A stretch of DNA of 64,000 nucleotides from Schizophyllum amplum. Its lineage: Eukaryota; Basidiomycota; Agaricomycetes; Agaricales; Schizophyllaceae. Both the position numbers and the translations under genes were made by a program. The stretch lies in NCBI GenBank assembly GCA_007026445.1, contig VDMD01000104.1, positions 1-64,000 of the forward strand, in the 5' to 3' direction. Each line of letters opens with the position of its first letter. Within the stretch, counting starts at the first letter, position 1. Shown piece after piece: positions 7,212 through 61,748 of the stretch. Below the pieces are notes generated by a model, which searched no databases, was not told the origin of the DNA, and saw nothing but the letters and a program-made list of their open reading frames with translations.

Positions 7212-8835
7212 TCAGCGACTCCGCGGTCGCTCGCGGCGGCTGCGAGAAGCATGACGGTGCCCGCGGTGATGGCTTCGGGAGTTCTCGTGTTGCCGACTGT
7301 GCGAGTGTTGCCGACCGTTCGAGCTCTCATATCCACGACTGTGCGAGCTCTCGTAGCCACGATTGCACGAGCTCTCGTAGCCGCGATCGCGCGACCTGTC
7401 GTGGTGGCGACTGCGCGAGCTCTCGTGAGGGCGACTGCGCGAGCTATCGTGATGGCGAGCGCGCGACCTGTCGTGGTGGCGACTGCGAGATCCCTCGCGG
7501 CGTCGTCCGTGATCACCGTCACTCGAGCTCGAGTCTCGAGACCTGCTCCTCCTATGATAATGGTCACGATCCCTCGACTGGTGTTGGTCGTCGCGGTGCC
7601 GATGGTGGTGGCGACTCGAGTGAGACTCCACGTCCTTGTCAATGACATACACGACGGGCTGCTGCTTGGGAAGATTGGTGGTGTTCACCCGCAGGGTCTG
7701 TGCGCGCTCCCGCGGAGGTTTGCCCAGCCCGAACAAGGCCTTCACGCGCTCGGCGAGCGGCTTCTTGTCGCTCGAAGCGAGCGGTTTCTTGTCGCTCGAA
7801 GCGAGCGGTTTCTTGTCGCTCAAAGCGAGCGGTTTCTTGTCGCCCAATGTCTTGGGCTGAGCAGGATACTACAATAGGATCATCGATCAGTTCAAATACT
7901 CAATGACTACAAAGTGAAGGAGAAGGACTCGAAGGAGATTTAGTACTCACATACATGATCTGCGGCGCACGGTGCATGCCCTCGCGCGCAGGTTTGTACC
8001 ACGATGTGCCCGAGACTAGCTGAGGGGCATCGACGAGCTGAGGGGTCGACCGAGACGCGAAGTTCAACTTGTGCGGCGTCGACCGAGACGCGAAGTTGTG
8101 CGGCGTCGAGCGAGACGCGAAGTTGTTACGAGTCTTTTCCAGCGACCGCGCTCCAGACGGCCGAACAGCAGCGCCAGACGCCCGAACAGCAGCGCCAGAC
8201 GGCCGAACAGCAGCGCCAGACGGCCGAACAGCAGCGCCAGACGGCCGAACAGCAGCGTCAGACGGCCGAACAGCAGCGGGTACGACCGGGGAGTACGCAG
8301 GAGCCGGGGGCGCAGCGTAATACACCGGGGCTGGAGGATGCGGCACCCTCAGCCGAGACTGGGAGCGCGAGGCCATCGCCGGTCTGTTCTGACGCGGCGG
8401 CGGCGCGCTCGAAGGACGCACGGGGTCGTCGTAGACCGCTGCCGCCGCCTCATGCGCTCCGCCTCCGTGCACAGCCGGGGCGCGTTGTGCGGTATAGGCG
8501 CGCTGGCCAGCTTGTGGCACGCGCTGGCCATTTTGTGGCGCACGCGCATCCGGTATGAAGACGACGGGCGTGGGCGCCGTGTAGCTCCTCTTCGGTGGCA
8601 CGCGGCTCGGGCGCGTCTCCATGACCTCTGTCATGCTTCGGTGCATGACCTCGGTCATGCTCCGGTGCTGCGTCCACGCGTCCGCGTCGACGAGGGCGGA
8701 CCCGGGAGCACGCGGGACGGGCGCGAAGGGGTTGGCGGGGGAGTGAAGCGCGTTGTCGGACGCCCAGCGCCCGATGCTTTGCTGCTTGAGCTTGTAGCGG
8801 AGGAGGGCCTGCGGGTCGTAGTCGTACTCGGTCAT
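7212..8835 (-). CDS. Two-exon gene, SxPDL/basic-tail family (copy with AAVRPSG repeats)
   Basis: Exons 8835-7951 and 7868-7212 with an 82-nt GTGAGT...TAG intron in phase 0 give about 513 residues. I chose the ATG at 8835 because the N-terminus MTEYDYDPQALLRYKLKQ is conserved in the paralogue starting at 21525. Exon 1 is disordered and carries about six AAVRPSG repeats (18-21-bp DNA units, about 8155-8280). It ends in a block with NFASRSTP, an S-x-P-x-L box and HRAPQ. Exon 2 opens with a DKKPLASS repeat, then ERVKALFGLGK, then a long RS/RH/SHS-rich tail reminiscent of splicing-factor RS domains. No enzyme domain is visible. It shares the intron position and the basic R-V-x-x-x-F motif with six other genes in the window. 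Function unknown. Confidence 0.75.
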
Positions 8836-8944
8836 TGTGGCAATGTCGGGGGTCGTGTGGGAGCGTCGGGGGTCGTGTGGGAGCGTCGGGGGTCGGGCGG
8901 GAGCGTCGGGGTCGGGCGGGAGCAGGGACGGGTGCGAAGTAAAG

Positions 8945-9125
8945 AGCGAGTTGTAGTCGACTGGCGAGAACGTCGGGAAGACTGGCGAGGATGCCTGGAA
9001 GACTGCCGAGATCGCCGTGAGGACTGGCGAGAATGCCGTGAGGACTGGCGAGAATGCCGCGAAGACTGCCGAGGATGCCGTGAAGACTGCCGAGGATGGC
9101 GGGAAGGCTGCCGAGGATGGCGGGA
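8945..9125. repeat. 21-bp tandem repeat in the 5' leader
   Basis: About eight copies of a GACTGGCGAGAATGCCGTGAG-like unit (first 20 bases GACTGGCGAGAATGCCGTGA). They lie between the presumed TATA box at 9181-9190 and the start codon at 8835, so they would be transcribed but not translated. The paralogous leader (about 21640-21800) has a more diverged version. Confidence 0.8.
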
Positions 9126-9180
9126 GGAAAGGAGAGGGTGGGGAAAGGAGCCAAAGAACATTGAACACCGTCAGGGGGCT

Positions 9181-9190
9181 GCCTTTTATA
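9181..9190 (-). promoter_or_regulatory. TATA box of the gene starting at 8835
   Basis: TATAAAAGGC on the minus strand, about 345 bp upstream of the start codon. The paralogous upstream region (about 21865) has the degenerate form TACAAAAGG. Confidence 0.5.
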
Positions 9191-9719
9191 GCCACGCTCT
9201 TTGGCCTTTGGGTTTGACATGGAACGTCATCGATCACGGGCCCAAACTTTGTTGTTGCCTCTTTCGGTCACAATGACCAGTCACAGCGTGAGTATGTCTG
9301 TCCTGCAGCATTACAGCAGGTGGCTCGATGCATGAGATACTGATGCATGACGGACATACTTTGGACGAATCGGATGATAGCGGGAAGGCGATCAGGTCTT
9401 TATGTCTGCATTTTTGATCCAGGTCAGCGTCGGGGGCGAGCGCCAATGTGGAGAACTTGCCGTCCTTTTCCGTAGGACAATGGGCGGTCGTCGAGGGTGC
9501 CTTCTGGACCGAAAGATCGGGATCGCTGAATCTTCCGTAACTGAATGAATATATCTGCCGCGTCGCGCGTTACTGGCACCCCTTATACTCTCTTTTTTCG
9601 ATGAACGCGACGCGTCCCAGTCCTCCGACAAAGCAAGACTATAGGAAGTTTTAGTCAGCAACGAGCCCAGATAATCAGCATATGGCTGAGGCTGACCTGT
9701 CACCCCATCTCGGCAATCA

Positions 9720-10060
9720 AGCAGCTGTTGACCCGCCCTCAAGTCGATCGAATCGTCGTCCAAGTCGTCTCCGCGTGCCGCAAAGCCTCGACCGAAACGC
9801 CATGGGACCACCATCAGCGAAGACCGGGACCGCAACATGACGCGGAGGTCCCGCGCCGACTTGTCCGGCGTGCTCAGGCAGTTCTACCTACCGTAGCGCA
9901 AGCTCAGCGTCATGAGTGAAGGCCATATGGGCTGGCGGCGATCTGAGCAGGTCATCCGGGCAAGGACGGCGCAGGTCATCGGGCGCCTGTATCACGTATC
10001 TGAAAGAATGAGCGTCGTCAGTTCGGCCGAATCGCTTGAGGCAAGAGAACATACTGCTTG
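9720..10060 (-). pseudogene. Truncated F-box gene 3' end
   Basis: The minus-strand sequence is clearly similar to the last 330 bp of the intact F-box gene ending at 22373 (for example MLRSRSS and the acidic end around DDLDDDSIDL). The frame is broken and everything upstream of about 10060 is missing. With the upstream gene at 7212-8835 it shows that 7.2-10.1 kb and 20.1-22.7 kb are direct duplicates. Confidence 0.7.
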
Positions 10061-10892
10061 TGACCGGTGGCGCAATATGACCTGCTTAGGGTACAAGGAG
10101 CGTCTTGAGCGCAGGCACACCGAACACGAGAACGTCGAGCATCGCGAGAGCGCCAAGCGTGACGACGTCTAGCGCGAGCTCCTCGCACGTAAAAAGGCTG
10201 CAGCCCACGTTTCCCGAGCGCCATGCCGAGAGCGCGCGGAGAACGTGAAGGTGATAGGCGTGAGGGTGATAAGTATTACACACTTCGTTCGCACAAGTAC
10301 GAATAGATACAGTGGGTATCTGTATAGCATGGTCAGTGTGTAGTGAGAGGTAAGGAGATGAGGACGCACATGTAGCATGCCGCGAGGGATACACTTGTCG
10401 GAACCCACGAGCGAACCATCGTCGAGAGCCCCACAGCCCGTCCTCCAGAAACACCGCAGCCCGTCTTCAATCGCTCGAGGGGGGGGATACAGATAGCGCG
10501 CTAGTATTGGCGGAGGGGACGTTGAAAGTCATTAAGCAGGGAGGGATGCTGAGCCTTTATCCTCGCTCGCGTCAGATACGAGCTTCAAGCATAACGAAGC
10601 GTTCAGCGCACCTCGTTGATTATGAGCTCCTCCCAGTGTCCTGCTGAACGCCGTCCTACTAGCGAGCTCGTGACGTGCACGGTGCGAGGCGTAGGTCGTC
10701 CTGCATGGTGCAGAGAGATCGAACGTCCGTACAACGAGCTGGTGGTAGTTACGCGACTTCGAAGGAGGAGGAGGCAGGAGCCTGCAGTCTTGACATGAAG
10801 GCGTGTATAGTGCACTTCAACATCGAGGAGAGATTATCGATCAAGAACAGGAGTAGGCTCGTTCCCATCCGGCTACACCACGTGACTCGTTC
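10061..10892. other. Unassigned; possible DAQDEQ-family remnant
   Basis: On the minus strand an intron-like GTGCGTCCTC...ATACAG (about 10325-10370) resembles the first intron of the DAQDEQ family. It is followed by a short hydrophobic frame ending LAMLDVLVFGVPALKTLL. The rest shows nothing recognisable. Confidence 0.3.
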
Positions 10893-10912
10893 CTCGCAAG
10901 AGGCGTAGCCGG

Positions 10913-11153
10913 CTGGGCCCACTCGGCCGGATTTTGGCGGAAAGGTGCTTTGACCGGCTCTCCTGCCTTTCTTGGCGAAACATGAGGCTCGGACTTCGTC
11001 GTGGGGGCTCGTTTTTCTTCAAAAAATCGTCTCGAGGTCGGTATATGAGAACTGAAAATCTCAGCGAGAGCTTTCGAACGTATATACGAAGTTTGGGGAC
11101 GATTTTCGGCCCGAAAGTCAACTTGGCGCGCGTCGACAGCGGCGCTTCCCACG
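10913..11153 (+). repeat. Left 241-bp inverted repeat
   Basis: It matches the reverse complement of 19184-19424 at all but about five positions (near 10917, 10998, 11035 and 11083-11084). It contains TTCGGCCCGAAAGTCAACTT near its inner end. Confidence 0.9.
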
Positions 11154-12384
11154 GACTCTGTCGATGGAGCTTGATTCCAGTTCTCATCTCCCAGTTCTCT
11201 GTGCCGCACATTTCAGTCGGACATTCAGATTGGTATTCTCGCATTGGGTATCATCGCGCATCAATTCTTCATAGATTTCCAGAAGTCTGCGTAGCTATTG
11301 ACACGGGGATTGAGCGGGCTGGGCGTTCCCGAAGCGAACGCCGGCGCATACATTGACCTTGTACCATCGCGAACCATGTTTTCTCTACCCAACATCTCCC
11401 CGGAGGCTACTCGTACCGGTGTGAGTGTCTGCTCTACATCCTTTGGTGAGCCATAGGGCGTTGAATCTGACCGTAAAGTTGCAGGACCAGGTGCACGATC
11501 AGGAGTGGCGCTAACCGACGTCGCCTCGTACCGCTGCCATCAGCAAGATGTCAAATTCCTTGTCGGCTTTTCGGCACTTGTGACGACTTGTGAGCCGGTG
11601 CACCAGGCCACCAGACGACAAGTCAGCCACAAGTACGACAGAGTCAGTGGTTAAGGAGTAATTACTGAAGCATTTCATTCTGCATTGTGTTATTCTGGTA
11701 TTATTACATGAGGAATCCGTGCATATGGCGATCTGAGTATCATAGAAGGAGCGGGATGCGTCGCTGGGAAGCCAGCGACTCTCGCGGCGAAGTGGCCTCG
11801 CGAGGGACCGCGGCGGAGTGGTAGACGGAGCTGATGCGGCGCGCCTTTGTACAGTACGTCGGGCGTGCCGGGGGATCGTAAAGGGAATGGAGGAGGTGTG
11901 GGAGCCGGGGCTGGTGGATATGGGTTGCACGTGGGCCGTACGTCGAGGGTGCGTGGATAGCGACGTTCTGCAAATTTTCGTCAGCATGAGCGCACAATGA
12001 CAGGAGATGACCACACACCTCGTCGTCTTCCCAATTCCACCAAGGTCAGCGCGCGAGGTCCATGGCAATTCTGTGGCCGAAGTTGCAGTGGCTGACCATC
12101 ATCCGCAAAGTTCTCCTCTCCCTCGTCGACGTCGTCACTGGCAGCTGACTGGCAACTACCCGGGGGTCTTAGCAGCTCAACACGACGCCAGCGCTTATGC
12201 TCGCTGTATACGACGACATCGTGCCCGTCAATTGAACGTTGTCCCGCCGCGGGAAAGCATTTAGTTCAATCCACGACGATGGCTTGTGCAGACTTGTGGG
12301 CCTCGGAGACATAAACTTGTGACTGGTGCCTGGTGTGACTTGTCAAGACTGGACAAGCCTTGCCAAGACCTGACAGGCGATTTG
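11154..12384. other. Non-coding flank inside the element
   Basis: About 1.2 kb between the left inverted repeat and the helicase stop codon. Open frames on both strands are short and unrecognised. There is no comparable spacer on the right, where the DUF6589 stop is only 138 bp from the repeat. Confidence 0.5.
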
Positions 12385-15133
12385 TCAAGAAACTGATGGC
12401 GGCAATGGGGTTTCTGGAGTCCAGGGGTGCGACGCGGCCCTCGATGAGCCGCCGATCGGTGTTTGCGAGTCGGACTCTAGCAAGGGTGCCGTGGCGTTGC
12501 TGCTGAGCCTTCTCTGCGTCAACGGCGTCCGCTGCGGCGTTCCCAATGTCGCTGGTGCAGTTCTCTCGCCGTCTGCATGAGCAGAATTCTGTTGGATCTG
12601 CGCTATGTACCGGAGAGCAGCGAGAACTGCAGGGTGGTCCCATGTTGTCAAACCTGTCGCGAGGTCGATGTAGTAGGCGCGCCCAGTGAGCGGGTCGCGC
12701 GCTTGCTGCCATCCGCTCGGTAGAGGGAGGGAGTTCTCGTTGGTGACAGGCGCACGCATCTGGGTATCCGCCGGTGCGTTTTCGTCTACTCTCTCGTCCC
12801 GCGTTTGCTGATGCACGTCAAGCACGGCGGTCGGTTGCACTGGCGAATGGTCTCTGGCAGCCTCATCGTCACGGGCGCTCGCTCCCAGCGCAACTGCTTC
12901 CCCCATCCCCTGAACCGCGTTATCCTCCTCAAGACGAGGACGCTTGGTGATCACGGGGTCCGTAGTGATGTCTGCAACATCGTTGGTGCCGCGTTTCTTG
13001 CCGCGCCGCTTCTTGGGAGGGAGGGAAGGTATGTCCATCACATTCATGGCCTCGAAGAGCTCGTCACCAAGCTCGTCCCACAGCGACCAGCCGTCCTGCA
13101 GCGCGGTAGCCAGCTGGCGCTTGTCGTCAATCGGCCCCATCGCAGCAAGAGTTTCGCAAATCTCGGTTGGCAGCAGCGCATGCGGAGCGTAGAGTGTACC
13201 AGCGAAGTACTTCTTCTTCATGCGCATACGCCACTTGCAGAGCTCTTGTACGATGTCGAGATTGACCTCGCACTTCCGAACGCGAGCCCGCTTCTTCTTC
13301 CGTGCGATAGGGCCTAGTTGACTGCGTTTTAATAGCTCGGGGTTGCAGATGTCGCAACATACTAAACGGTTGATGACTACTCCGAGCAGCGCGTAAGTGA
13401 TCTGTTTGCATACGTTACCGAGAAGGTGCTTACCTGGCTTTTCGTTCCGAAACACTTCTGCTACGACCAGTCGACGACAAGTCTGGGTCTGTATGTACAC
13501 ATACAGACCTTCCCCTGCTGCTCCTTCTGGAACAAGGCGAACGGGTCCAGGATTGACATCAAGAATGGCCGCTCGAGTGATGTCCCCGGCGGCTACCGTG
13601 GCACCCGCTACTGCAGTGGACCCGCCACGTCCTCTTCCTGTCCCGCGCCCCCGCGGCTGACCTCGGCCTCGTCCGCGGCCACCGCGACCCCTCCCACGAC
13701 CACGAACAGAAGCAGCCCGCTGACCACTTGTCATGGCGATCGAAAGGTCTGTCGTCTTGTTCAAAGCAGCCTTCTCCACTAACATAATGGCTATTCCGAA
13801 GCGCCCCGCGCCCCGCGCTGCTCGTCCTGCGCGCTGAATCCAGGCTGACAGCGTCCGCGGCGCTTTCCATTGTAGTACAGTGTCTACATCTGGTATATCG
13901 CAGCCCTGATGATATGTCAGTTCGTGACGCGCAGTTACAGTGGTATTTGCTTACCATTCCAGCAGCATCTGTGCAAACCAAAACACGGATGTGGCCCTCA
14001 CGGAACAGGAGCATGAGCATGTCTCGGTAGTCCTTGGACATGCCGGCGTTGTACGGACGGACGAGCCCATACGTCCGGAGGTGACAGGGGACGAGCGAGT
14101 TCAGATGATTGACGAAGTCGCCGCCCCCTTGGACATCGTCGTAGTACACCAGTGCCTTTGGTATGTCATCGGCTTTCTTCGTGTACTTTGGTATGAGGAA
14201 ATCAGCGTCGTGGAAAGTGTTCATGGCGTGCTGCATTTCCCGGACGACCTGGGAGACATTATCGCGCTCGTTGCCTTTGTTGACCTCAACGAGATTGTGA
14301 CGGTCCATGCCGAGGGTGGATATGAGGTCGTTGCGCACGAGTTGACTCAAGGTAGCAGTCACGGCGACGATGGGTACGCGTTTCGGGAGATGTGCGCGTA
14401 CGAGACCAATGTCGGAATACTGCTTGCGGAAGGAGTCTCCCCAGTGAGTGACACAATGCGCCTCGTCAATGAAGACAGACAAGCAGCGTGCGCCGAATGC
14501 CGGTTTGCGAAGTACGGAGTCGACGAAGGAGCGCGATAGAAGCATCTCGGGCGAGAGAATGACGATCTGCCACTCGCCTCGACATATCTTCTGTCAATTT
14601 TGTCAGCCAAGTATATACAAGATACGCGGGTTACGCACTTCCATAAGGTCCTTAGAGCACCCTCCGTTCGCACTGTTGATAGCGGTGGCGCGGAGTCCGA
14701 ATTCGGTCTTGAAAGTGCGAGTCTGCTCGTCATGGAGAGCGAGCAGAGGCGAGACAACAATGGTGGTCATCCCGGCACTATAGGGAAGCAAGTGAGGGCC
14801 AGCCACAATCCCTGTCTTGCCGGACCCGGTCGCGGCCTGCAGAATGGTGTCATGCCCTAGACACTGCGAACGAATGCACTCCAGTTGATGTGGTCGGGCA
14901 CCAGTTGTCCACTTGCGCACTTTGGCCTTGATGATGCTGGGTAGCTCGTCAAGCTCCTCTGATGTGGGCTCTGGCCGTACGAAGGCTGGGTAAAGGCGCG
15001 CTTTCGCGGGAGGTGTGGTTGCTGCAGCAGGAAAACAGCGACTGCCGGCGGGCAGATGAGGGAGGTCGGATGTTTGTGTTCTCGTCTCGGAGGGCAGGGA
15101 AGTAGGAGCCGGGATTGACGTCGACATCGACAT
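12385..15133 (-). CDS. RecQ-type DEAH helicase with RG-rich linker and C-terminal WW domain
   Basis: Three exons, 15133-14639, 14590-13955 and 13905-12385, with introns of 48 and 49 nt, both phase 0, give 883 residues. Walker A ATGSGKT is at 101-107, DEAH at 207-210 (IDEAHCVTHWGDSFR, the RecQ form), motif III AVTAT follows, and motif VI QRAGRAARG is at about 401-409. These mark an ATP-dependent 3'-5' DNA helicase by family knowledge. After the core comes an RG-rich run (about 445-471) and a basic, cysteine-containing region. A WW domain follows (about 770-802; tryptophans about 776 and 799, 22 residues between them, then D-H-P), which would bind proline-rich partners. All core motifs look intact. 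The gene is divergent from the DUF6589 gene, its start 64 bp away. A helicase acting on element DNA during movement is a plausible but unproven role. Confidence 0.85.
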
Positions 15134-15197
15134 GGAAGTCTTAGACAGGCAACAAAAATATATGAAATTGAAATATCTCGCCTTGTTCTGAGCCACC
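15134..15197. promoter_or_regulatory. 64-bp bidirectional promoter region
   Basis: This is the whole space between the two divergent start codons. It is AT-rich in the middle (AAAAATATATGAAATTGAAA, on the plus strand), in contrast to the GC-rich surroundings. The rightward gene has GCCACC directly before its ATG and G after it. Both genes must share this region, so co-expression is likely. Confidence 0.65.
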
Positions 15198-18100
15198 ATG
15201 GACAGAGACACGAGCTCCCCCGCGTACGGTACATACAATGCGAGACCTTCTTCTCTGCCACCGCCGTCTAGTCCTCCTAGGTCCCCAGACAGGCCACCAA
15301 CAGATCAAGACGCTGCCGATCCCAATAACACACCGCACCAGACGGACCTAGACGAGCCGACGACACCTGTCGCGCGACGCGCTACAGCAGCTCAGCATAG
15401 CAACACAAAACTCTATGACTCTGGCTCACCCTGCAACAATGCTGGACAAGATATCTCCTCCGACGATGTGCCACTTGCACAGCTCACGGCGGAAAGTCGT
15501 TTGAGCCTCAGCCCAGCCTATCAACTGCAACGTTTGACTCGACATTCCGGCTATTCCAATGCATCAGCTGCCATGCCTGTCATAGCACACAACTCGCACC
15601 TCAGTGATGATCCAGACATACAATCGAACGTCATCCCGTCTAGCGATGACACCTCGATCTACGACGAGGAGGCCGAGAAAGCTATTCTTCAACAGCGAAG
15701 GCAAGATGCTCGGCTTCGAACATTGGCTGAGAGGAAGGCCATTGCCGCAGCAGAGGATCAGCAGCTTAAGGAAGCCTGGGAGAGGGAGACAGCCGAGTTT
15801 CGCGAGCGTACGGAGGTGGAGAGGGCACGGCAGCGGGCGATGGCCGCTCAAGACACAGCGCGCAGGCAGGAGGATGCACAGAAGCGGGTGGAGAGTCTGC
15901 AGGAAGCGGCGTCGCACACGCGGGCACAGACTGAGGCACGTCTCGACGCCATCCTGGATCAGCTAGGCAACAAGCTGGACATCGAGAAGATGACTCTGGC
16001 TGACCTTCTCGAGCGCGCCTTCGATCCCGATATATCCCACAAACACGACTGGATTTGGCGCGGCTTTTTTCAGCACCGGTCTGTCGTTCGGCGTGTCTTC
16101 AATCATTGGACTAGTCCAGACATAAACACGTCAGCTCGAGAAACCGTGCGCGAGTGGGTGCTTACGGAGATGGAGAAAATAGCGGAGTACGAGTCAGACG
16201 CAATCATCAACTCGTCCGTGCTAAGGAAGGCAGGGAAGACAGTCGATGAAGCGTACTTCCTCAGCTATCAACCGCGCGAACTAGGCGCACGTCTACGTGG
16301 TATGGCGTCGGGTGTATACCGAGTTCTGGCGGCATTTTCGCGTACGACGGCAAAGGCCCAGCAGCAGCTCACCGACCAATGGCGGCAACGCAAGGAGACG
16401 GTGCGTGTACGTTTTACATCACTGTTGGTTGGTCGGGCTCATCCACCTGTAAGATGGTGTCGTCTGCAGTCGTCACGCTCATGCAAGCAGCCAGTCAGCG
16501 TAATACATATGTCCAGTCAATTATGGGGACGTACTTCATGGCTACTGGAGCGCAGCGTCAGCATTTCAGCATTCTCTCTGGCATGGGAATATCCATGGGC
16601 TACTCGAGCATAATTTCGCACGGAGAGAAGGCCACCGCCGGGCGAGCTCCCGGTACTCTCAGCCAGCTGTCAGACGCGTGTCGTCGGACAGCCCAGAAAC
16701 TTGCCTCCACGCGTATCTACGGCATTGTCTACGACAACATCAACATGACCATCCGCATAGCAGAGCAGATTCTCGGCAGGAAAAGTACGCACCAACGACT
16801 TAGATACACATACCGAGATTTGACCAGCTTGCAGATGCGCAAGAAAACGGCACTTGCGCGACCGCGTTTCCGCTGCATAATGTGGTTCTTGAAGACCTGG
16901 ACGCACATGAGCTAGACGAGTGCATCAAGAGCGCCCCACCACTCACTGAAAAGGGCCTTCGCCTGACTGAGGCAGAGCAGAAGCTATTCCACGAATGCAT
17001 GCTGCACACGGTCTCGCGGATCATCGTCAATCACGGTGGAGAGGAGTTCTCAAAGCACCAAAAGGCGTTGAATGACAGCCTCCCCCGAAGCCCCGACGCC
17101 ATTGACGTGCACAAAACGAGTATCCACCCGCTGCCAGCCATGGAAATCGACGAAAACACACTTACGGGCAACGTCGAGATATTGGAGACCGTGATGAAGG
17201 AGCTGAAGGTTGACGTTGATTCCCCCGAGCATACGCGCTATGTCAGCATCATTGCAGGGGACCAGCTTACCATGGCCAGGCAGCGATCCATTCAGCATAT
17301 TCGCGTGGGGCATGAAGTCGGGTTCCAGGCATGGAAACACGTCGTTCTCATGCCCGGCCTATTTCACGCCAAGATAGCAGACTGCCATGGTCTACTAGAG
17401 ACTCACTTTGGGCGCGCGAACTCGGGCCCGCGCAGCCCCGGCAGTCTCTCCTTCCACAACAAGTGTCTGGGTCGCATACCCATCGTGCTATCCTCCCTCC
17501 CTCCGTTCCGTACGACCCGGGACCTCATCTTCGTGTCGCTGTACGCCCGAGTTCTCCACTGCCTGCTGCTCGTCACAAAAACGGGCAGTCTGAAGGAGGC
17601 AGCGGGCGTGCTGGACACGTGGGATGATCTGCGTGCTGCTGCCCAGTCCATTGTCGAGCAGTACACGGATGTTGATCGCGTACAGGAGCTGCGCGAAGAA
17701 CGAGAGCCTGAGGAGCGCCAACGCGAGAAGACTGTCAGGGACGCGAAAAAGGCCGCCAAGACAGACCCGAAAGTGGACGTACCCGAGTATACGGAGCACG
17801 TCAAGAAGGGCGACATGGTCTTCGAAAACGCCGTGCTCTTCATGCGCGACGCCTTGCTCTCTCGCGAGTTCTCTGACGCCATCAAGGCCGGCGATTCCGG
17901 ACGCGTCCTGACGGTATTCAAGTTATGGGTCTTCTCGTATCGTGGGAGCGGACGCACAAAGTACGCTCACGAGATGTTACATCTGCTGCACAACATCTTG
18001 AACGTCTGGCCAAAAGGAATCAGGTCAGTGCTCCTCGAAAACTTGTTGCATACACAGCATACTGACGCAGCGCGTACCTCGTATAGACACGCAATCTTAC

Positions 18101-19045
18101 AGAACTGGCTGCAGAACCCGACTGGGAAACCGAACGCGTTCGTTGAGATAGATCTTGTTCAAGAGCATCTCAATTACTGGATTAAGGTGCGTCAGCGCGT
18201 AATCGGGAGGAAGGGATTAACTTACGATGAAGCAGAGGATATACAAAGCGGATGGTGACGGCCACTCTTGGACATGGCTCGCCATGGTCTCGCCCACTGT
18301 CAACGTCCTGCGCCAGCTGGCCAACCATGTTAACAGTGAGCTCGGTGCCAAGCAGGGCAAGAAACACGCCGCACCTGATATCGGGCGTGACATCGCGCGC
18401 TTGATGGACAGCTTGGAGCAGTACGAGGTGTACGTCGAGAAACCGGGTCGTGTGCTCGACTATGAAGAGAAGCCCGCGCCGGACGTCATAGCCGTCGGGA
18501 TGGCGGCGCTGACCTGCGGAAACTCATCTAACCCGCTGATGGACTTCAACGCTGCCTTCGAGGTGACGCGCCAGCGACACACGTTGATGCCGCTCGCTAT
18601 GCTCAACACCCACGCCCACGCCGATGTCCAGAGCGCAGCCGCGCCATCTGCAGACGAGTCAGCGGCGACATCCGCGGGAAACACAACGTCCACTTCGAAC
18701 ATCACGAGTGTCGCCGACGTGGCACCGCGACGCGCCGAAGTCGAGGGCATGGGTGCAGGAGATGCGGCGTCGAACGTTGCAGAGACGGAGTTGGGCGTCC
18801 CGGGGGCGGAGGCGACTGACGTGGCGACCGTGGTCCTGCGCGTTGAGGTGGTCGATGAGGACCAGTCGGAGACTGCTGACGATGATGGGAGCTCGGATGA
18901 AGAAAGCTCTGATGAAGACGAGCACGAGGACGATGAGGCTACCTTGCCGCTCATCGATGGTGACGACGTGGCACTTGATATGGATGATGAGTTTGTCGAG
19001 CTCGAGGAGGGGCAGGCCATGGAGTGCGAGGACGACGGCTTTTGA
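15198..19045 (+). CDS. DUF6589-domain protein
   Basis: Five exons, 15198-16400, 16454-16784, 16835-18023, 18087-18186 and 18236-19045, give 1,210 residues. The 63-nt third intron is a multiple of three and also reads through; I splice it because the family continues directly from WPKGI to HAILQNW. Residues 1-300 are disordered then charged coiled coil. The conserved core follows: IVYDNINM (D about 495), IAGDQLTMAR (D about 654), MPGLFH (H about 689), then FENAVLFMRDALLSREFSDA, IKAGDSGRV, SYRGSGRTKYAHEMLHL and NPTGKPNAF. The C-terminal 150 residues are strongly acidic. The spaced D/D/H residues would suit an RNase H-like nuclease or transposase, but this is inference. Start chosen for its strong context and the N-terminal match to the spacer. 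Its partner is the divergent helicase. Confidence 0.85.
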
Positions 19046-19092
19046 AGCAGACGTATTGTAGGCCCGGCAGTGTTATGTTCACTGGATGTACA

Positions 19093-19098
19093 AATAAA
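19093..19098 (+). terminator. Poly(A)-signal-like AATAAA
   Basis: AATAAA about 50 nt after the DUF6589 stop codon and 85 bp before the right inverted repeat. Confidence 0.4.
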
Positions 19099-19183
19099 TT
19101 GCGACTGCAACAAGGACGTAGGACGCGTGAACGCGAAGCAGTACTGAGAAAATGATGCACCCCGTGGTGATGAACTTAGCGCG

Positions 19184-19424
19184 CGTGGGAAGCGCCGCTG
19201 TCGACGCGCGCCAAGTTGACTTTCGGGCCGAAAATCGTCCCCAAACTTCGTATATACGTTCGAAAGCTCTCGTCGAGATTTTCAGTTCTCATATACCGAC
19301 CTCGAGACGATTTTCTGAAGAAAAACGAGCCCCCACGACGAAGTCCGGGCCTCATGTTTCGCCAAGAAAGGCAGGAGAGCCGGTCAAAGCACCTTTCCGC
19401 CAAAATCCGGCCGAGTGGGTCCAG
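19184..19424 (-). repeat. Right 241-bp inverted repeat
   Basis: Reverse complement of 10913-11153 with about five mismatches. Frames through both copies encode similar peptides on opposite strands only because the DNA is nearly identical; I see no other sign of coding. Confidence 0.9.
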
Positions 19425-20080
19425 TCCGCTCGCAAGCTCGCGGGTTTCGATTTGTCCTCTTTTCACGTGACCCGCCTGAGCGCGCGAGCGACTGGCCTGC
19501 GAGTCTAGAACAGGAGGCTCAGGAGGAAAAGCCTGGCAGCGTCGCGCGGTCACGAGGAGCACGTGACTTCGAAATCCCAATAGGCGCCGGGCGCGCACGT
19601 CAAGGGTCAAGCTCCCAAAATCAATAGGATTTCATTGCTATTGTCATCAAAGTCGTAAGAGTCGTAATTAATCTTATTCTAGCATGGCAGCAAGGAGTCT
19701 CTGGCATGAGGGAGACAATATCTGCCAGTCTGAGAGAAAGGAAACAATCGATATTCGTGAAATGGAGATCATGTCTCGGAACTTGTGCAGATGGGAATCC
19801 GAGAGTACATAGTCACTTCGTTAGATCAGAGAGAAAAAGGAACGATACGTCGCTAGAGCACAGGTCATGATACCTTGCTCAAGGAGAGGTGGAGAGACTT
19901 CGTTAGGAAAGGAGAGACGTTACTGCATGAGCGGGGCGGAGGAATCAATACTTTGTTGGAGAACTGGGCCAGACTTTGTCGGAGAAGCGGGAAAGAAATT
20001 GCCAGTATCACATCCCAGTGATCGGAATGAAGGCCCCGAGCGGTGGGTACCGTCTGATGACACGCGCGAGGTGACGGCAT
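19425..20080. other. Intergenic, nothing recognised
   Basis: No domain, repeat or structured RNA is visible. Open frames are short. Confidence 0.5.
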
Positions 20081-21525
20081 CTAGCGACTCCGCGCTCGCT
20101 CGCGACGACCGCCGCGAGAAACATCGTGGCGGTGGCCGTGCGAGCACCCGTACTGGATGTTGTACGAGACCTTGTACTCGACACTGTACGTGCACTCGAG
20201 CTGACAGCGGCGCGAGCATTTGTGATGGGATTTGTCCTGGCGTCCGAGTCCGTCATTGGAGCCTGACTCGTCAGTAGAGCTGCTAAGCGAGTACGCAGGC
20301 CTGCGCCTCCCATAATGGTCAAGATCTCTCGAGTGGTGGCGGCGCTCGAGGTCGCGGTCCCGATGACGGTCGTCGCGGTCTCGATGATGGTCTTCGCGGT
20401 CTCTATGACGGTCGTCGCGGCCTCGATGATGGTCGTCGCGGCCTTGATGACGGTCAGCGCGGTCGGTGCGGCTCTTCAGGCCATCCGTGTAGTCCAAGTT
20501 GTCGGTACTCTTCGGCGATTTACCCAGTCCGAACGCGGCCTTCACACGCTCATGGATTGACTTCTTGTCGCTCGGCGTCACGTACTTCGAGTAATACTAC
20601 AAGGACAGCAATCGATCAGTCCAGAATACACAGCCGAGTTGCCACAAAATGAAACAGCAAAAGCACTCACCTCCGGCGCACGATGCGAACTCTCGCGTGC
20701 AGGTTTGTACCCCGATGTGTTGTCCTTATATCCCGATGCTCCCGAGACGAGGTCTGGCGTCGACCGGGACGCGAAGTTGTTGCGCGTCTTGGTGTGGTAC
20801 GTCGGAGCCGCCGCAGTGGGGTACACCGGGGCACGCGCAGACGAGTACGCTGGAGCAGACGCAGCGCTGTACGCCGGAGCAGATGCAGTGGTGTACGTGG
20901 GAGCCGCAGCAGCATTGTAGTAGTAAGCAGAAGCAGAAGCAGCTGCAGTGCCCCTTGGGTATACAGGAGCAGACGCCGTTTGGTAGGCGGGAGCAGATGC
21001 AGTGGCCTGGGGATACACGGGAGCAGATGCTGAGTAGTACGCGGAAGCATGCGTGGGGTAGGGAAAAGCAGACGCGGCGGCCGCGGGATACGTCGTTGCG
21101 GACGCAGCAGGGTACGCCGAAGTACTAGACGTTCCCGTACGAGACTGGGACTGCGTCGTTCGGCTATGACGTGCCGACGAGCTCGACCGGTGCCCGTAGT
21201 CGCTGTGATGTGCGCCGCCCTCGTACGACGCCGGCGCACGCTGGCTGTGGCGTGGGTCCGCTTCCGGCATGAACACAACGTGCGTGGGCGGCAGGCTACT
21301 CCACTTCGACGACACGCGGCTCTGGGGCGTGTCCATGGCCTCGGTCGCGCTCCGGTGCTGCATCCACGCGTCCTGGTCCATGAGTGCGGACCCTGGCGCA
21401 TGCGAGACGGGAGAAAAGGGGTTGGCAGGGGTGTGCAGTGCATTGTCGGACGCCCAGTGCCCCATAGTCTTCTGCTTGAGCCTGTAGCGGAGGACGGCCT
21501 GCGGATCGTAGTCGTACTCGGTCAT
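20081..21525 (-). CDS. Two-exon gene, SxPDL/basic-tail family (copy with SAPAY repeats)
   Basis: Exons 21525-20671 and 20596-20081 with a 74-nt phase-0 intron give 456 residues. The N-terminus MTEYDYDPQAVLRYRLKQ and the block NFASRSTPDLVSG...SHRAPE are shared with the gene at 7212-8835. Exon 1 carries a Tyr/Ala/Pro-rich repeat of S-A-P-A/V-Y type (about 20790-21130). Exon 2 opens YYSKYVTPSDKKSIHERVKA and then AFGLGK. It then runs into an RD/RH array (21-bp DNA units at about 20330-20470) and a cysteine-containing end. The downstream neighbour on the minus strand is an intact F-box gene, as in the 7.2-10.1 kb copy where that gene is truncated. No known domain; function unknown. Confidence 0.75.
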
Positions 21526-22715
21526 TGTGGCGATGGCGTGGTTGTGTGGGAACAGATGGAGGGGAAAGACGATCGTGCGACGCAGAGGCCAACAGTCGCT
21601 ACTGCGAAGCAAAGCGCGGTAGACTCGCGGAACAGACGGGGTCACGGGAAAGACTGGTACGAACGACGGGAGGACTGTCGAGGACTACGGGTAGACCGTC
21701 GAAATGGACGAGAAGACTGTCCAGGACGACAAGTAGGCGGTCGAGATCGATGAGAAGACTGTCGAGGACGACAGCAGGACAGTCAAGAACGACAAAAAGA
21801 CCGCTGAGGATGATGGGAGGAGGGAAAAGGAACCAAAGCACATCGGACCCGTCAAGGGGGCTGCCTTTTGTAGTCGTGCTCTTGGGCCTTTGGTTTGACA
21901 AGGGCCCTCGTCAATAACAGGATCAAGCCAACAATAGTAGGACCAAACTTTGCTCTTACCCCTTTCGGTTACAATAGCAAAGCCAGTCCCGCGGCATCGT
22001 ACTCGACACCCAAGTTTGACGCGTCACATATACACTTTAGACGAATATGAGGAGAGCATAAAAGGCGCCTCGAGCGATATCTCTGCATCAAAGAAACGGG
22101 TCAGCACAAGGGCTGAACGAAGCTGTTAAGCACTGACCGGCTTTTGTGGCACAATGGACAGTTTTCGGACCTATCTTTCCAGCGACAGATATGAATCGTC
22201 GAAGCTTCCGTAACTTGATCAATATACTGTTGTGCTGCGCGTCCCTAGCATCATGTCCTCTTCTGTTCTACAACTCTACTCATGTCGTCCCCGACCTATC
22301 GGAAGTCAGCGACGAGCTCGACGGATCGGCGGCGTGAGGCTGAGACTAACCTAGTGACTCAGGACCAGAGAATCAAGCATCCGTCGATCCGCCCTCCAAG
22401 TCGATCGGGTCGTCCTTCAGGTCGGTCTCCACGTGCTGCAACGCCTCCACTGTGCAGCCATGGACAACCCTCCGCGAAGACCTGGATCGCAGCATGACGC
22501 GGAGGACGCGCTCCAGCTTTTCCGGCACGCGGTGGTCGGTCCTGCCATGATGCAAACTCAGCGTCGTGAGTGCAGGCAGTATTGGCTGGCGGTGGTCCGA
22601 GCAGGTCATCCGGGCCAGGACGACCCAAGTCATCATCGGGCGGCCGTCCAACGAATCCGAAACAATGAGCGTCGTCAATCCGTCAAGGTGCTCGAGGCAA
22701 GAGATAAAGTCTTCG
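20081..22715 (-). repeat. Direct segmental duplication, copy 2
   Basis: Counterpart of 7212-10060. The spacer similarity (CCCCTTTCGGTTACAATAG near 21960) shows that the duplication covered intergenic DNA as well as genes. Confidence 0.75.
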
Positions 22716-25572: not shown

Positions 25573-25871
25573 TGTACGCATCGATAGCTCGCAAGACCAC
25601 ATGCCTTCAATCAGTCTGTTCCCGCGACTGTATTTGGATATGCACTGCGTAGGCGGACTTGCGAAAGAGAACAGTAGCACGCGCCGCGCTGTCGATTCGT
25701 CTCGAGCGCCTGCGAACGCGTTCGCTCCCTCACCAAGTCGGAGCGCATCGCGAGTCTGACACAGCAAATTGTATTTCTTGCTGTTCTTGTTTGGCGAGAT
25801 CGTCTGCGCCCTTGAGACAGTCAGACGGCACGCATTAACAAGTTTGTCATATCATATCTAGCCATTTCTAC

Positions 25872-26460
25872 CTACAGATCCAATGTCTCGTCGACTTTGA
25901 TCACCTCGAGCGCGACCACTTCCCTTCCCTGTACGACGCGGGCTATCTTCCGTGAGCAGATCATGACAGTCAGCCAGTCACGCTGGGCTTCGCGGATCTT
26001 TTCTGGGAGCTTGTGAGTGCCGAGAGACAGCTCAAGGGAACGCAGACTCGGAATCTTCGGTTGTACTCCCTCTGGCACTGTGAGCCCGCGCCAGAGCACG
26101 AACATCGTGCTCAAGTGCGCTCCATACCATGCCATCCATATAGTATTATCTGCGCAGTGCACTCGATTTTGAGCTCCTGCAGCTCAACCATCAACGCCAA
26201 GCATGCAAGGAGCGTGAAGCTGGCGTCCTCTGAGTCGTTCAAGTGGTGTTTTTTCCTCTATGGAGAGGCGGCGTAGATGTCTGAGCGGCGACGCGGAAGG
26301 GAAAATGAGAAATGCCAACAGGCACGTGTACTGATATTCGCCTTCTTCGCCCCTGTTAAGTACTGTCGATCAAGGCGATATTGCGAAAGTTGAGCGCGTT
26401 GATGTACTGGAGCAACATGAACGCGTGAACGCTGAGCTCGATACTCCTAAGAGCAGGAAA
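25872..26460 (-). pseudogene. 3' remnant of an F-box gene
   Basis: The minus frame WMAWYGAHLSTMFVLWRGLT...EVVALEVIKVDETLDL is nearly the same as the end of the F-box gene at 61749-63253. Only about the last third remains; the F-box is missing, and the junction near 26460 runs directly into the DAQDEQ-family copy. Confidence 0.75.
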
Positions 26461-26532
26461 TTTGTATTGCCATCTAAAAAGTCGAACGGAACTATTCATT
26501 CGTCGAGAGAGCTCACTCGCCCGACGCCTCTC

Positions 26533-28330
26533 TCAGTACATAGGCTCAAACGTCCTCCACCAGCGTAGCGTTGTACACCACATCCCCTCCCGGCGCACCG
26601 GCCTACGCGTCCCGTTCCCTGCCCATCGGCATCTGCATCCTCTCCCCGTTCGTCGACCAGCGAGCGCGCCCTCCAGCTGATGGAACACCAATCTCTGGAT
26701 CATGTAGAACTGGCGAGTCCTTGCGCGTAGTCGCGTGGAAACCGGGCGCGGAATGAGAAGCCGGACGCGGGACGCCGAAGTGGCCCTTCTACGTCCAGTG
26801 TCGGTCGCCGGACGCGCGCTGAATGAAGATTGCCACGCGCGCCGAATGGGCGTTGTACGCGCGAGCGGAACCTCGGCGTGCAACGAACGTTGCCTTGTCC
26901 ATGGACGAGGCTGAATGGGACGAAGGCATTGGCAAATCCATAAGGGTGGCGCGTGAACATAGTCGGAAGAGCGCGGGGACATCGTCGTGACAACCAATCT
27001 GACGGCCATGAGCATGATGACGATGGTAAAGACGACGAGGGCGGTGTCCAGGGAAGACGGTCGTATATGGGCTTTCAGAGGTACCGGATCCTTGCCATCG
27101 ACGCGGTACGATCGGGGAGATGTCATGCCCATGCGAGCTGAAACGACCGCGACGCGAGATACGAGGGACTTGAATTCGATCGCATAGTCGCGGACAGGGT
27201 AGGCTTGCTCGTCTTGTGCGTCCGGTATGAAAAATGAAAAGTGACTGTGCATGGCCTGGTTAGGAAGGGAGACAAGTGGAGAGAGCCGAGACGTACATGC
27301 GCGGGATCGCTCGAACGTATGCTCGAGAACGACGAGGTTAGCGTTGGATGGAGACGACCATAGGTAGACTTGAAGAGGGAACTGGGTCTTGATATGGATA
27401 AAGGTTGGTCGGCGCCGCATGCCTGCGGGACTTGCATTGTCGGCTGCGCGGCTGAGAATCATCGTCCGAGCGTGCAGGACATGTAAAGAAGAAAGTCGCT
27501 GTGACCATGTCCTAGATGCCGCAGAGAAGACGTAGAATTTGAGAATGTAGTCAGAGAAGGAGAAAGATGGAGTATAAGAGGACGCACACATGCACCACGC
27601 CCGCGCGCGTGACGAGAAAACTTGCGCTCTTGAGCCGTCAGACAGTGGGAGCCTGTGTACTTGTAACTGAAGCGCCGTCTTTTCTTGAGGCGGAGGAGGT
27701 CGTGAGGCGGTCCTGAAGCGAGGGGGGGGGGCGTTTATTGACGATTAGGAAGCCCGAGGTGTCGAGGCCTTCGACGACATGATATTGTTCTGATACGCGT
27801 CAGCAAGCTGCACTCGGCAGGATACTTCATGCAACGCACCTCGTAGATGGAGAGTATAACCCGTGCCAATATTCTGCCCGCCCTTCGCCAAACAAGACGC
27901 CGATCGCGGGTCCATGAGGCCGCGCGAGCTGGACACGCGCGCCATACAGGTGCAAGTCATTCAGACGTTCTCTAAGCTGCCCCTCCTGCGCATACAGGAA
28001 GCGCAGTCTGGCAGTCTGAGGGAAGAGGTAAAGCCAGAGTCAAGCGCTCGATCAACCAGTCCGCGGTCGCCGTTGAAGCTGTGGAGCGTCGAGGATGAGC
28101 TTCGAGAACGTCGTAGCATAGCCCGCGCCATTCGGGTCACTGTAGCACTGAAGCTCTTCGACTGACGCCGTCCGGGGGAGGCGCGACCGAAGGAGCAGCA
28201 TGATGGGGAGACACAAGAGAACAATGGCCTGGCCAAATCGAGTAATCGTCGAATCCAAATGGAACCAAACACGAATGTTATTGTTCGTCGATCCCCTTGG
28301 CTTTCTTCGACACTGTTTGCGCCTTCAATC
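26533..28330 (-). pseudogene. DAQDEQ-family gene, left copy, probably broken
   Basis: The clearest exon reads IPDAQDEQAYPVRDYAIEFK, then SPRSYRVDGKDPVPL, then a hydrophobic, probably membrane-spanning stretch LDTALVVFTIVIMLMAVRLV. It is preceded by a convincing 52-nt intron (GTACGTCTC...CTAACC...CACAG) that is conserved in the right copy at about 60.68-60.73 kb. An upstream intron starts GTGCGTCC. Compared with the right copy, the start of the exon differs by a number of bases that is not a multiple of three, so one copy is out of frame. A second block (27745-28330) resembles 59690-60180. I do not recognise the family; the true exon set is uncertain. Confidence 0.45.
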
Positions 28331-28361
28331 ATATCGTATCATATACATTCCCAGACCTTTG

Positions 28362-29861
28362 TTATCCTGTCACGCTAAGTCGACTCAATATACTAGAGTC
28401 TCGTCCACGGTCCACCTCGACACGTTCGAGCGCGACCACTTGCCTTCCCTGCACGACGCGTGCTCTCTTCCGCGACAGAGCCATCACAGTCAGGGAGTCA
28501 TGTTGCTCTCTCCGTTGCTGGTCTGTGAGCCACTCTGTGCCGAGATACAACCTGAGCACAAGCAGGTTCGGCAGGACCGGTCGCCTGCCTTCGCGCACCG
28601 TAAGTCCGGTCCACAGCGTGAGCGACATGTCCTCGCCCATCCAATCAGGGTAACCGAACGCGAACGTGCTCTGGGCCGAACACGACACATCGAGCTCCTG
28701 CAGCTCATCCATCAGCTCCAAACATCGAAGCAGTCCCTCGCTTGTCTCCTCGTCGAAGGCGTGGTAGGTTTCCATCAGGCGGAGGCGACGCAGATGCGTG
28801 AGAGGTGACGATGGAAGCGTTAGGAAAGTCAGCAGGCGACCGTACGGCAGACCGTTCCGAGCTTCTGTATCAATGAAGATGATCTCGCTAATCTTTGGCG
28901 CGTTGAGGTACGAGAACAACATGAACGCGTGACGGCTAAGCTCGATGCTCCCAAGAACAGGAAGTTGGATCGGATCTATAACCCCTTCCAACGTAGAGGA
29001 CCGGATGTCGTCGTCAAACGCACAAATGAGGTCCTCGAGGGTCGCCTGGTACTGAGCAAGTGTGGCGACAAGCGGCCTCAGGTGGCATATGTCGTCTAGG
29101 TCGAGGTGCAATCTCGCGAGTTGCCACGAGGACGGAAGCTTGGTTGGCTCGTGATATATGGTTTCCATCGCATTGAGGCGCACCTGCCTCAGCGAGGGTG
29201 CATTGGCGAGAAACTCGAATGTGCCCGCTTCGTTGTCGACCAGCGAGTTGATCGAAAGACTGGCGTCCCGCAGGCGCGCGAAATGGTGGCCCGGCGCGAT
29301 CGAGCAGAAGTCCTTGAAGAACCCACCGAGCGATATCGACTCCCATCGCGGCGCATGAGGAAGAATACCAGCGATCACTGCTGGAAGATGCCTCGCCGCC
29401 GTGCATACAATCTCTAGGCCGTGTTTGCGAGAGCGCGAGATACATGTGCGGACATACGCATCGAGATGCCGAGTCTGTTCATCGACATGAATTCGAGACC
29501 ACAGCCGCGGCGTAGCGAGCGCGGCGGCGCGCCAGGAGACGCAGACGCACGCGACGGTGGTGGCAATGAGGTGCGCGGCGTAGTTCCTTCCCTCTTTCTG
29601 GCTATTGTATCCCAGGAGATTGGACTCTGTGAGGTGGACGAAGATCTCTGAGAGGAGTTCTGGTGGGAGCCGATGCACAGGCGCCGCGCACTCTACTGCA
29701 ACCTGCCGGCGGAGCGCGCTTTCTGCATTGATGTTCTTGATCCGTATTCCGAGCTGCGGCGAGTATCTTTCGCTAGTCGAGATCTTCTCAGAGGCCGAAA
29801 CAAAGCCCTCGGTGTGGGGGGTCGTGTCTGTACGGGCGAGCGCGCTTTTCGGCGGAGACAT
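28362..29861 (-). CDS. F-box/LRR-like protein (left inverted-repeat copy)
   Basis: One exon of 499 residues from ATG 29861, chosen because the paralogue starts at the matching place (58156). The F-box, RLPPELLSEIFVHLTESN, begins near residue 64 after a variable N-terminus. It is followed by the VCVSWRAAALATPRLWSRI block and about 330 residues of leucine-rich sequence. From about residue 160 onward it is almost identical to the copy at 58156-59949, whereas the first 150 residues differ at many positions. Its frame stays open to the family's normal end (ARVVQGRQVVALERVEVD), which the other copy loses by a frameshift. Predicted SCF substrate receptor, target unknown. Confidence 0.8.
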   Translation of the reverse strand: MSPPKSALARTDTTPHTEGFVSASEKISTSERYSPQLGIRIKNINAESALRRQVAVECAAPVHRLPPELLSEIFVHLTESNLLGYNSQKEGRNYAAHLIATTVACVCVSWRAAALATPRLWSRIHVDEQTRHLDAYVRTCISRSRKHGLEIVCTAARHLPAVIAGILPHAPRWESISLGGFFKDFCSIAPGHHFARLRDASLSINSLVDNEAGTFEFLANAPSLRQVRLNAMETIYHEPTKLPSSWQLARLHLDLDDICHLRPLVATLAQYQATLEDLICAFDDDIRSSTLEGVIDPIQLPVLGSIELSRHAFMLFSYLNAPKISEIIFIDTEARNGLPYGRLLTFLTLPSSPLTHLRRLRLMETYHAFDEETSEGLLRCLELMDELQELDVSCSAQSTFAFGYPDWMGEDMSLTLWTGLTVREGRRPVLPNLLVLRLYLGTEWLTDQQRREQHDSLTVMALSRKRARVVQGRQVVALERVEVDRGRDSSILSRLSVTG

Positions 29862-42320: not shown

Positions 42321-42653
42321 TGTCAAAAGTGGTGGGTAGGCGGACGAGCCTGCCTTCAGCCCGACGCACCGTGTCACGTCACACGGTGCATCTAAGTACC
42401 TTGCACCGTCACAATTCCCGATTAGGGAATTCTAACGCTTACTTTTATAGGGGCTCCGCCCTTTTCCGCCCCTCAGTCTTTACCCTCACTGCAGGAAGAC
42501 TGAGGGTGCGTCTTACACTACATTTACTTTATCCTCAGCTAACAGTACCTTAGTCTTACGCGTCCTGCGCATCCTTAGGTACGAATACAGTCTTTACCCT
42601 CACTGCAGGAAGACTGAGGTCTTACGCGTCCTGCGCATCCTTAGCTCGTGAAA
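42321..42653 (+). repeat. 5' LTR of the copia element (333 bp)
   Basis: Begins TGTCAAAAGTGG and ends CTCGTGAAA. It contains the direct repeat CAGTCTTTACCCTCACTGCA followed by GGAAGACTGAGG twice, about 120 bp apart. It is the same as 54381-54713 over the full length by eye. Confidence 0.95.
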
Positions 42654-42668
42654 GGTTATGAGCCCCGC
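42654..42668 (+). promoter_or_regulatory. Primer-binding site for initiator tRNA-Met (half-tRNA type)
   Basis: GGTTATGAGCCCCGC follows the LTR directly. It is complementary to the anticodon arm of initiator tRNA-Met (GGGCTCATAACC), as in Drosophila copia and Ty5, where a 5' half-tRNA primes reverse transcription. It does not match the usual TGGTATCAGAGC-like 3'-end site. Confidence 0.65.
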
Positions 42669-42722
42669 AAGCGCCTAGCTGAGCAAGACCTCATCTATAC
42701 GACTCACTCTCCCGCTCTCGCC

Positions 42723-45134: not shown

Positions 45135-46204
45135 CAGCTTGTGCTGTACCAAGGTTTGTAATACACCCCGTGAATATGCGTAACGCGTATTGCAATCTGT
45201 ACGTGAGGTTCACGGGGCCGGCAAATGCCGATCCGCGTGCCCGCCGCTGCCCTCCGGGGAGCCGGGAAATGCCCATATCGAGCCCGGCGGGCTGATAAGA
45301 GTGGCGCGTGGCTTTACCGCCGCCGCGACGCTCGCGCGCCGCCCTTGATGCGCCGCCGGTGACGTCACCCCGACACGTCACAGCGTCGGGGCGCGTCGCG
45401 CGCGCCCGCCGATGCCGCCGCACGTCGTCCCGAGCGCATAAAATAGAAAAAAAAATAGATTATGTTGGATGTATATGTGATCTAGTACTATATAAGTAGT
45501 GGGGGAGGGGCGAGAACCAGCGAGTAAGAGCAGAAAAGGCGGGCGAAAATTTTCGCCCGCCCTCGCTGCGTCCGCGCTGTCCGTGTGGGGAGCGGGGGCT
45601 CACGGCAGAGATGGGGGAGTGGGTCGGGGCGTCCCTGAAGACAGAGGATGCGTCGCTGCGCCCGGCAATGGGCGCGTCTACGCTCAGCGGGGCGATCCAG
45701 GCGGGGACGCGTCTGCGAGGGAGCGACGCGCTGCGAGCGCACGCTGGTGGCTGCATAGTGCATAGCGGCGCGCTTCATCGCAAATGCAGCGCTGGGCGTC
45801 ACGCCGAAGCGCGAAGGCGGCGTGCACGCGCCGAGGTAGGGGGCGGTGTGCGTGCGTTGCGGCTGGCCGAGCGCCGATCACAGCGCTGCCGCCATGTATG
45901 CGCCTGCTCGCAGTCCCAGTCAGCCGTACCCATGCGTTAAGCACCCCATGTAAGGTGCATAAACGAGCGGGACGGGAAGGCGCCGGGGCATGCCAGTGCT
46001 CGGCTGCGTCGTCATGCGCATGCGCAATGACGACGGGCTCTGCGCAGGGCGTTGTGATGCGCCATGTGCAGAGCATAGGGGAACGGGGATGGTAGGCGTC
46101 TGGGTGAGCCGCACGCGCCGCCGTACTGCTTGCGCCATTGTCTGGTCGGGTGCGAAGACTCGCGGACAGCGCTCAACGTGTGTTAGTTCATGGAATTAGT
46201 CTCG

Positions 46205-51421: not shown

Positions 51422-51452
51422 GCAGAGCACGACATGCCTCGTCGTGCTCTGC
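51422..51452. repeat. Perfect 12-bp stem, 7-nt loop inverted repeat
   Basis: GCAGAGCACGAC, spacer ATGCCTC, then the exact reverse complement, close to the left edge of the AT-rich core. Confidence 0.9.
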
Positions 51453-51494
51453 AGCTCCTGTATGTACAATTTTCTTAGTTTGATTTTGCGGGAT

Positions 51495-52665: not shown

Positions 52666-52866
52666 AGTTCTGCTGTGAAACATAATACTGACAAAATTTC
52701 GGCGTCACTCGCTAACGCACGCACGCACGGCATTGTGTGCGTTCGCGAGCGGCGCTTGTCCCTAGCCATCGAGCCCGCCACCCGGCCCCCTCCAACGCAC
52801 CCAAGCACCCATACGACGCGTGGGAGAGACGCCCGCCACCTACACGGCCCCCGCCACCCCCCCGTG

Positions 52867-61480: not shown

Positions 61481-61748
61481 CTCGACGAGTGAATAGTTCT
61501 GTTCGACTTTTTAGATGGCAATATATATGGTTCTGTGTCACATGTCACTAGTTCACTGGCAGGTGACCTTCAGCAACGATGACGCACGCGCGCTCGGTCA
61601 CGTCGGTGGCCTTTCTCTCTTTCTCTTTGACTAACGGTGTCGATCTACGACTGTGTTCCGAGTGTCGGTACGTCCAGGTGAGTTTCACCTTTCGAAAGCT
61701 TAGGCGGGTACAGTACTTGTACTAACGCTACGGACAGCATACGACGCT

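Follow-up and report, generated by a model that had tools for sequence, protein, structure and literature searches.

DUF6589 and RecQ-like helicase genes within a probable AcademH-like DNA transposon of Schizophyllum amplum

The window analyzed here is a 64,000-nucleotide stretch of the basidiomycete Schizophyllum amplum (positions 1 to 64,000 of contig VDMD01000104.1, assembly GCA_007026445.1) in which long inverted repeats enclose two divergent genes, one encoding a RecQ-like superfamily 2 (SF2) helicase and the other a protein of the Pfam family DUF6589 (PF20231). A preliminary description of the same DNA regarded the repeats and the gene pair as a candidate undescribed mobile element. The features of the locus are listed below.

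10854-19507 (strand not applicable): whole transposon, 8,654 bp, termini TAGGCTCG...CGAGTCTA; the ends are where likeness among copies stops
10845-10853 (plus strand): left 9-bp target-site duplication, GAACAGGAG, a perfect match to the right copy
19508-19516 (plus strand): right 9-bp target-site duplication, GAACAGGAG, a perfect match to the left copy
10907-11153 (plus strand): left subterminal inverted repeat, 247 nt
19184-19430 (minus strand): right subterminal inverted repeat, 247 nt, 97% complementary to the left arm
10893-10900 (plus strand): CTCGCAAG, internal to the element, with the same letters in other copies
19429-19436 (plus strand): CTCGCAAG, internal to the element, with the same letters in other copies
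12385-15133 (minus strand): RecQ-like SF2 helicase gene, 3 exons, 882-883 amino acids, C-terminal WW domain (Pfam and hand splice model)
15134-15197 (strand not applicable): 64-bp gap separating the chosen start codons of the two genes
15198-19045 (plus strand): DUF6589 gene with 5 exons, encoding a probable DDE transposase of about 1,206 amino acids (Pfam, hand splice model and fold comparison)

The two inverted arms are spaced 8,030 nt apart, and one arm is matched at 14 sites of the 49.65-Mb genome; the inverted repeat is therefore not a product of chance. The repeats had previously been given as 241 bp and about 98% identical, and their presence around the gene pair stands with the corrected size and identity listed above. 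However, they are subterminal and do not form the ends of the element. The copies that we call family A, to which the window element belongs, remain alike past the inverted repeat until they reach TAGGCTCG at the left end and CGAGTCTA at the right end, and they are dissimilar outside these points. Moreover, perfect 9-bp direct repeats, whose sequence differs from copy to copy, lie immediately outside all six two-ended family-A copies (the window element and five short ones). Because the likeness stops there and the 9-bp direct repeats lie directly outside, we place the element at 10854-19507, so that it extends beyond the 10893-19436 of the preliminary description. The word CTCGCAAG had been correctly located just outside the inverted repeats and was proposed as the target duplication, but when the family-A copies are set side by side, it occupies an identical place within 7/7 left ends and 6/6 right ends. 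It is therefore part of the element, and the true duplication is GAACAGGAG. The window contains 16 TA..CTCG and 17 CGAG..TA sites, and the 9-bp flanks agree (with at most one mismatch) only for the element's own pair. A search of the same genome for the empty site of the window insertion matched only the two flanks themselves.

Outside the window, 12 arm matches were found (copies and loci elsewhere in the genome are denoted by C numbers). Ten of them form five inverted pairs, which are shortened versions of the window element of approximately 1 kb (C1, C13, C266 and C11) or 2.2 kb (C241); the others are a single end (C271) and a partial match (C24). The short copies of family A retain roughly the first 190-300 bp of the window element and, from its other end, at most approximately 720 bp; short inverted pairs that match the ends of C79 and C223 likewise occur at other places in the genome. 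The short copies are deletion derivatives, and the repeat is therefore not an unrelated solo repeat. Wide occurrence as such a solo repeat is what the preliminary description had named as a refutation. Fifteen copies that lack DUF6589 have TAG...CTA ends and perfect 9-bp duplications: five of family A, five of family B, four of family C, and C260. No 9-bp duplication was found at the single end C271, the partial copy C24, a family-B copy nested in C241 or the C113 fragment. These numbers count the copies that were read, and further listed matches to the ends of families B and C and of C79 and C223 lie beyond them. The nested family-B copy in C241 was considered as a natural proof of an empty site and rejected, as its flanks do not match.

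A profile search of the genome with PF20231 gave at least 19 matches, which were merged into 10 DUF6589 loci, and a search with a 210-amino-acid helicase exon from the window gave 14 matches at 13 loci. At all 10 DUF6589 loci found, a helicase match adjoins the DUF6589 gene; no DUF6589 locus lacking the helicase, which the earlier description had named as a possible refutation, was found in the genome. The two matches are 1.5 to 2.6 kb apart at nine of the loci and 6.0 kb apart at the tenth, C245:86-104 kb, whose DUF6589 gene is interrupted. The two genes are divergent at 2/10 loci (the window and C299) and convergent at 8/10. Because the helicase is such a constant neighbor, the pair appears to be the machinery of the element rather than passenger cargo. 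Three helicase loci have no DUF6589, namely C157, an internally deleted family-B copy; C260, which spans 2,677 bp and has CATATCTCG as its duplication; and C113, which is a C223-family fragment. Perfect 9-bp duplications and TAG...CTA ends occur at 7/10 DUF6589 loci, which, besides the window, are the following.

C273: 6,165 bp, inverted repeats of 191 bp that are 100% identical, duplication CATACTTAC
C299: 8,047 bp, ends TAGACTCG...CGAGCCTA, duplication TCGGCGAGT
C1: 6,649 bp, ends TAGTCTCC...GCAGACTA and no long repeat, duplication AGTCCAAAG
C79: 6,740 bp, inverted repeats of 120 nt, 94%, duplication GAATCACCA
C223: 5,834 bp, inverted repeats of 208 nt, 89%, duplication TGCTGGCCT
C245, 84466-119511 (84.5-119.5 kb): 35-kb family-B element with both ends, duplication AGACCGTCT

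Within 10 kb read at each, no 9-bp duplication was found at C46 and C245:69 kb. The ends of C1, C79, C223 and C260 are weaker than the others because they were selected among TAG and CTA sites on the basis of agreeing flanks. The inverted repeat of C223 starts exactly at both chosen ends; that of C79 starts within the chosen ends, by 2 bases on the left and by 28 bases on the right. When the 21 elements with duplications were read again, 9/9 bases agreed in each, and in a control in which the right flank was displaced by 10-30 bases, the maximum agreement over 882 comparisons was 7/9. The occurrence of copies at unrelated sites with perfect 9-bp duplications supports the earlier reading of the unit as a DNA transposon. 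In C245 (84466-119511), the DUF6589 gene is split by approximately 11 kb of inserted material. Over 12.2 kb, including the element and its right flank, C77 (43 kb) and C1 share 99.4% identity, and the left end of the C77 copy is replaced; the two diverge to the left of a point approximately 130 bp inside the element, which may represent a second haplotype, a duplication or a rearrangement.

Both genes of the pair were earlier described as intact, and this holds: their domains are recognized by Pfam, and neither hand-spliced frame contains an internal stop. In the helicase gene, the introns lie at approximately 14638-14591 and 13954-13906, with several borders possible for the first in our hand splice model, and the Pfam matches are DEAD (1.2e-18), Helicase_C (5.8e-16) and a WW domain (1.9e-10). 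The Pfam results list no RQC or zinc domain and match no nuclease domain in this protein. In a joined-query search, its nearest named relatives, approximately 30% identical, include SGS1 and RecQ-topoisomerase proteins. The WW domain at the C-terminus, a protein-protein interaction module, is unexpected for a RecQ-like protein. The 64-bp gap between the start codons is presumably the shared promoter of the divergent genes. No further gene was recognized inside the element, in which an open frame of 195 amino acids (11511-12098) has no Pfam family.

The introns of the DUF6589 gene are placed at 16405-16469, 16785-16834, 18024-18086 and 18187-18235 in the hand splice model, and other borders are possible. 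A deposited S. amplum protein, P0001, is 98% identical to this model over the region searched and matches PF20231 at 9.7e-143; its gene model has a later start and lacks the beginning of the second exon of the hand model. For structure models of the window DUF6589 protein and of one divergent relative, the best matches are the DDE transposases Hermes, P element, ISCth4 (of IS256 type) and RAG1, with moderate Z scores for both models and approximately 6-10% identity to the hAT (Hermes) and P element transposases. By Foldseek alone, the best E values of the two models were 0.022 and 0.0037, both to Hermes, and none fell below 0.001. A D-D-E triad is conserved (D349, D508 and E788 in P0001 numbering). 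The modeled protein thus combines an RNase H-like fold with the D, D and E residues of DDE transposons, and its catalysis is predicted; the earlier suggestion that DUF6589 supplies the nuclease agrees with the two fold comparisons. No sequence match to the protein was found in the PDB. Pfam has transposase models for the KDZ, hAT, MULE and Plavaka families, and none of them was matched by P0001 at E<=1, where only DUF6589 and two unrelated below-cut-off models appeared (the filters of this search dropped most matches above approximately 0.1). These models make a transposase the most likely role for DUF6589, with the helicase as an accessory protein.

Two protein searches returned 305 and 216 relatives of DUF6589, and among the best 120 of each, the named proteins come from genera of Agaricomycetes, and no animal member was found; a good part of the 120 from the second search carried no name. 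In viral contigs, 22 pattern matches to DUF6589 relatives yielded no confirmed case. A joined query drawing on a candidate set capped at 7,980 listed 50 matches (32 with DUF6589 only, 17 helicases and one WW-domain protein), among which there was no DUF6589-helicase fusion that could serve as separate support for the partnership.

The source cited for the AcademH lineage is reportedly Kojima 2020, Mobile DNA 11:15. According to PMC10045372, AcademH is a helicase-encoding Academ lineage with target duplications of 9 or 10 bp, and PMC10799480 describes it as a low-copy lineage of Basidiomycota, Ascomycota and Mucoromycota. The S. amplum elements resemble it in having their own helicase, with DEAD and Helicase_C domains in the window and a helicase at every DUF6589 locus; in making 9-bp duplications, both in the two-ended family-A copies and at most DUF6589 loci; and in their basidiomycete host. 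This likeness concerns the helicase, the duplication length and the host. It is well supported that the elements work like AcademH, and it is likely that they are AcademH. The label "undescribed" in the preliminary description is accordingly doubtful, given the helicase-encoding AcademH elements with 9-10 bp duplications that are already published, and the element most likely belongs to a recently described transposon group and is not a wholly new kind.

Other transposons agree less well. The hAT (Hermes) and P element transposases are the best fold matches of the two DUF6589 models but differ from them by the low identity and the absence of a Pfam match; hAT and P elements make 8-bp duplications. 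Kolobok elements duplicate TTAA, whereas the S. amplum elements make 9-bp duplications of varied sequence. KolobokH is similar in placing a RecQ helicase in a fungal DNA transposon, but its helicase coding region lies downstream of the transposase domain (PMC9587614), and here the helicase is a separate divergent or convergent gene. The KDZ (Kyakuja, Dileera and Zisupton) and Plavaka elements are likewise basidiomycete DNA transposons, some with an extra enzyme gene, but they have other ends and duplications of 7-8 bp (KDZ) or 2-3 bp (PMC12730594), compared with 9 bp here, and DUF6589 has no Pfam match to either.

We therefore regard the unit as likely to be an autonomous AcademH-type DNA transposon that moves by cut-and-paste, with DUF6589 as its DDE transposase and the RecQ-like helicase as the partner. 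As the fold and the triad suggest, the DUF6589 protein would bind the ends, composed of the TAGNCTCG termini and the long subterminal inverted repeats, cut them, and join the element to target cuts staggered by 9 bp. Such cuts would give rise to the 9-bp duplications that are observed. The helicase, as a constant partner, probably acts by unwinding the ends, or else by processing gaps and intermediates of strand transfer, and the short ends-only copies, which have like ends and duplications, may have been moved in trans.

The competing explanation with the most in its favor, although we consider it unlikely, is that the DUF6589/RecQ elements constitute a DDE superfamily of their own, distinct from Academ, which came independently to its helicase and 9-bp duplications; it would have 5'-TAG...CTA-3' termini and a constant divergent or convergent helicase and would be spread across Agaricomycetes, hidden behind the label "domain of unknown function". 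The lack of any match of P0001 to a Pfam transposase model at E<=1 or to a PDB sequence fits this explanation, as does the failure to find the term DUF6589 in the open-licence literature searched. However, a helicase, 9-10 bp duplications and a basidiomycete host together correspond to the published description of AcademH (PMC10045372 and PMC10799480), and DUF6589 may simply be the Pfam name for the Academ(H) transposase domain. We find it considerably less probable that DUF6589 is a divergent Mutator-like (MULE, IS256-type) transposase and the element a MULE with a captured helicase. MULEs do make 9-bp duplications and have long inverted repeats, as seen here, but this trait is not specific to them; no MULE match appeared in Pfam at E<=1, the fold scores of Hermes and P element are equal or higher, and a helicase present at 10/10 loci is not a single capture.

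It is very improbable that the helicase is the real mover, in a helicase-driven or subtelomeric RecQ element with DUF6589 as an accessory protein. C157 and C260 carry part of the helicase and have duplications in the absence of DUF6589, and several fungi are known to have telomere-linked RecQ genes (PMC4522978), but duplications also flank copies in which neither gene is intact, Pfam matches no nuclease domain in the helicase, and the DDE-like fold and the fixed 9-bp duplications point to DUF6589. Finally, paralogous host genes, 66% identical, do flank the element, and the inverted repeats might on that account be attributed to a segmental duplication or an assembly artefact around two host genes; this explanation is hardly credible and is refuted by the copies at unrelated sites with differing 9-bp duplications.

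Several further features were observed around the AcademH-like element. Minus-strand open frames with no Pfam family lie on each side of it (7900-9267 and 20578-21684), and the flanking regions 8545-10048 and 21259-22704 share 66% identity along 1.56 kb and have short tandem repeats close by; it seems that the transposon inserted between two tandemly duplicated segments. Identical 333-bp direct repeats at 42321-42653 and 54381-54713, with TCTGA on both outer sides, look like those of a very young 12.4-kb long terminal repeat retrotransposon (42321-54713). Blocks of 0.6-2 kb are repeated in opposite orientation at 25852-29793 and 58194-63273 with 70-89% identity and apparently represent a local gene family.

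The DUF6589 family thus gains a likely function, that of a DDE transposase, and the complete ends, the duplications and the helicase partner of its elements are now available to look for. In mushroom genomes, genes annotated as DUF6589 and the RecQ-like genes that adjoin them may be transposon genes, and this is worth checking first. The constancy of the helicase raises a testable question, namely, why some eukaryotic cut-and-paste transposons need a helicase of their own and make 9-bp duplications. If DUF6589 proved to be unrelated to Academ, these elements would represent a new superfamily.

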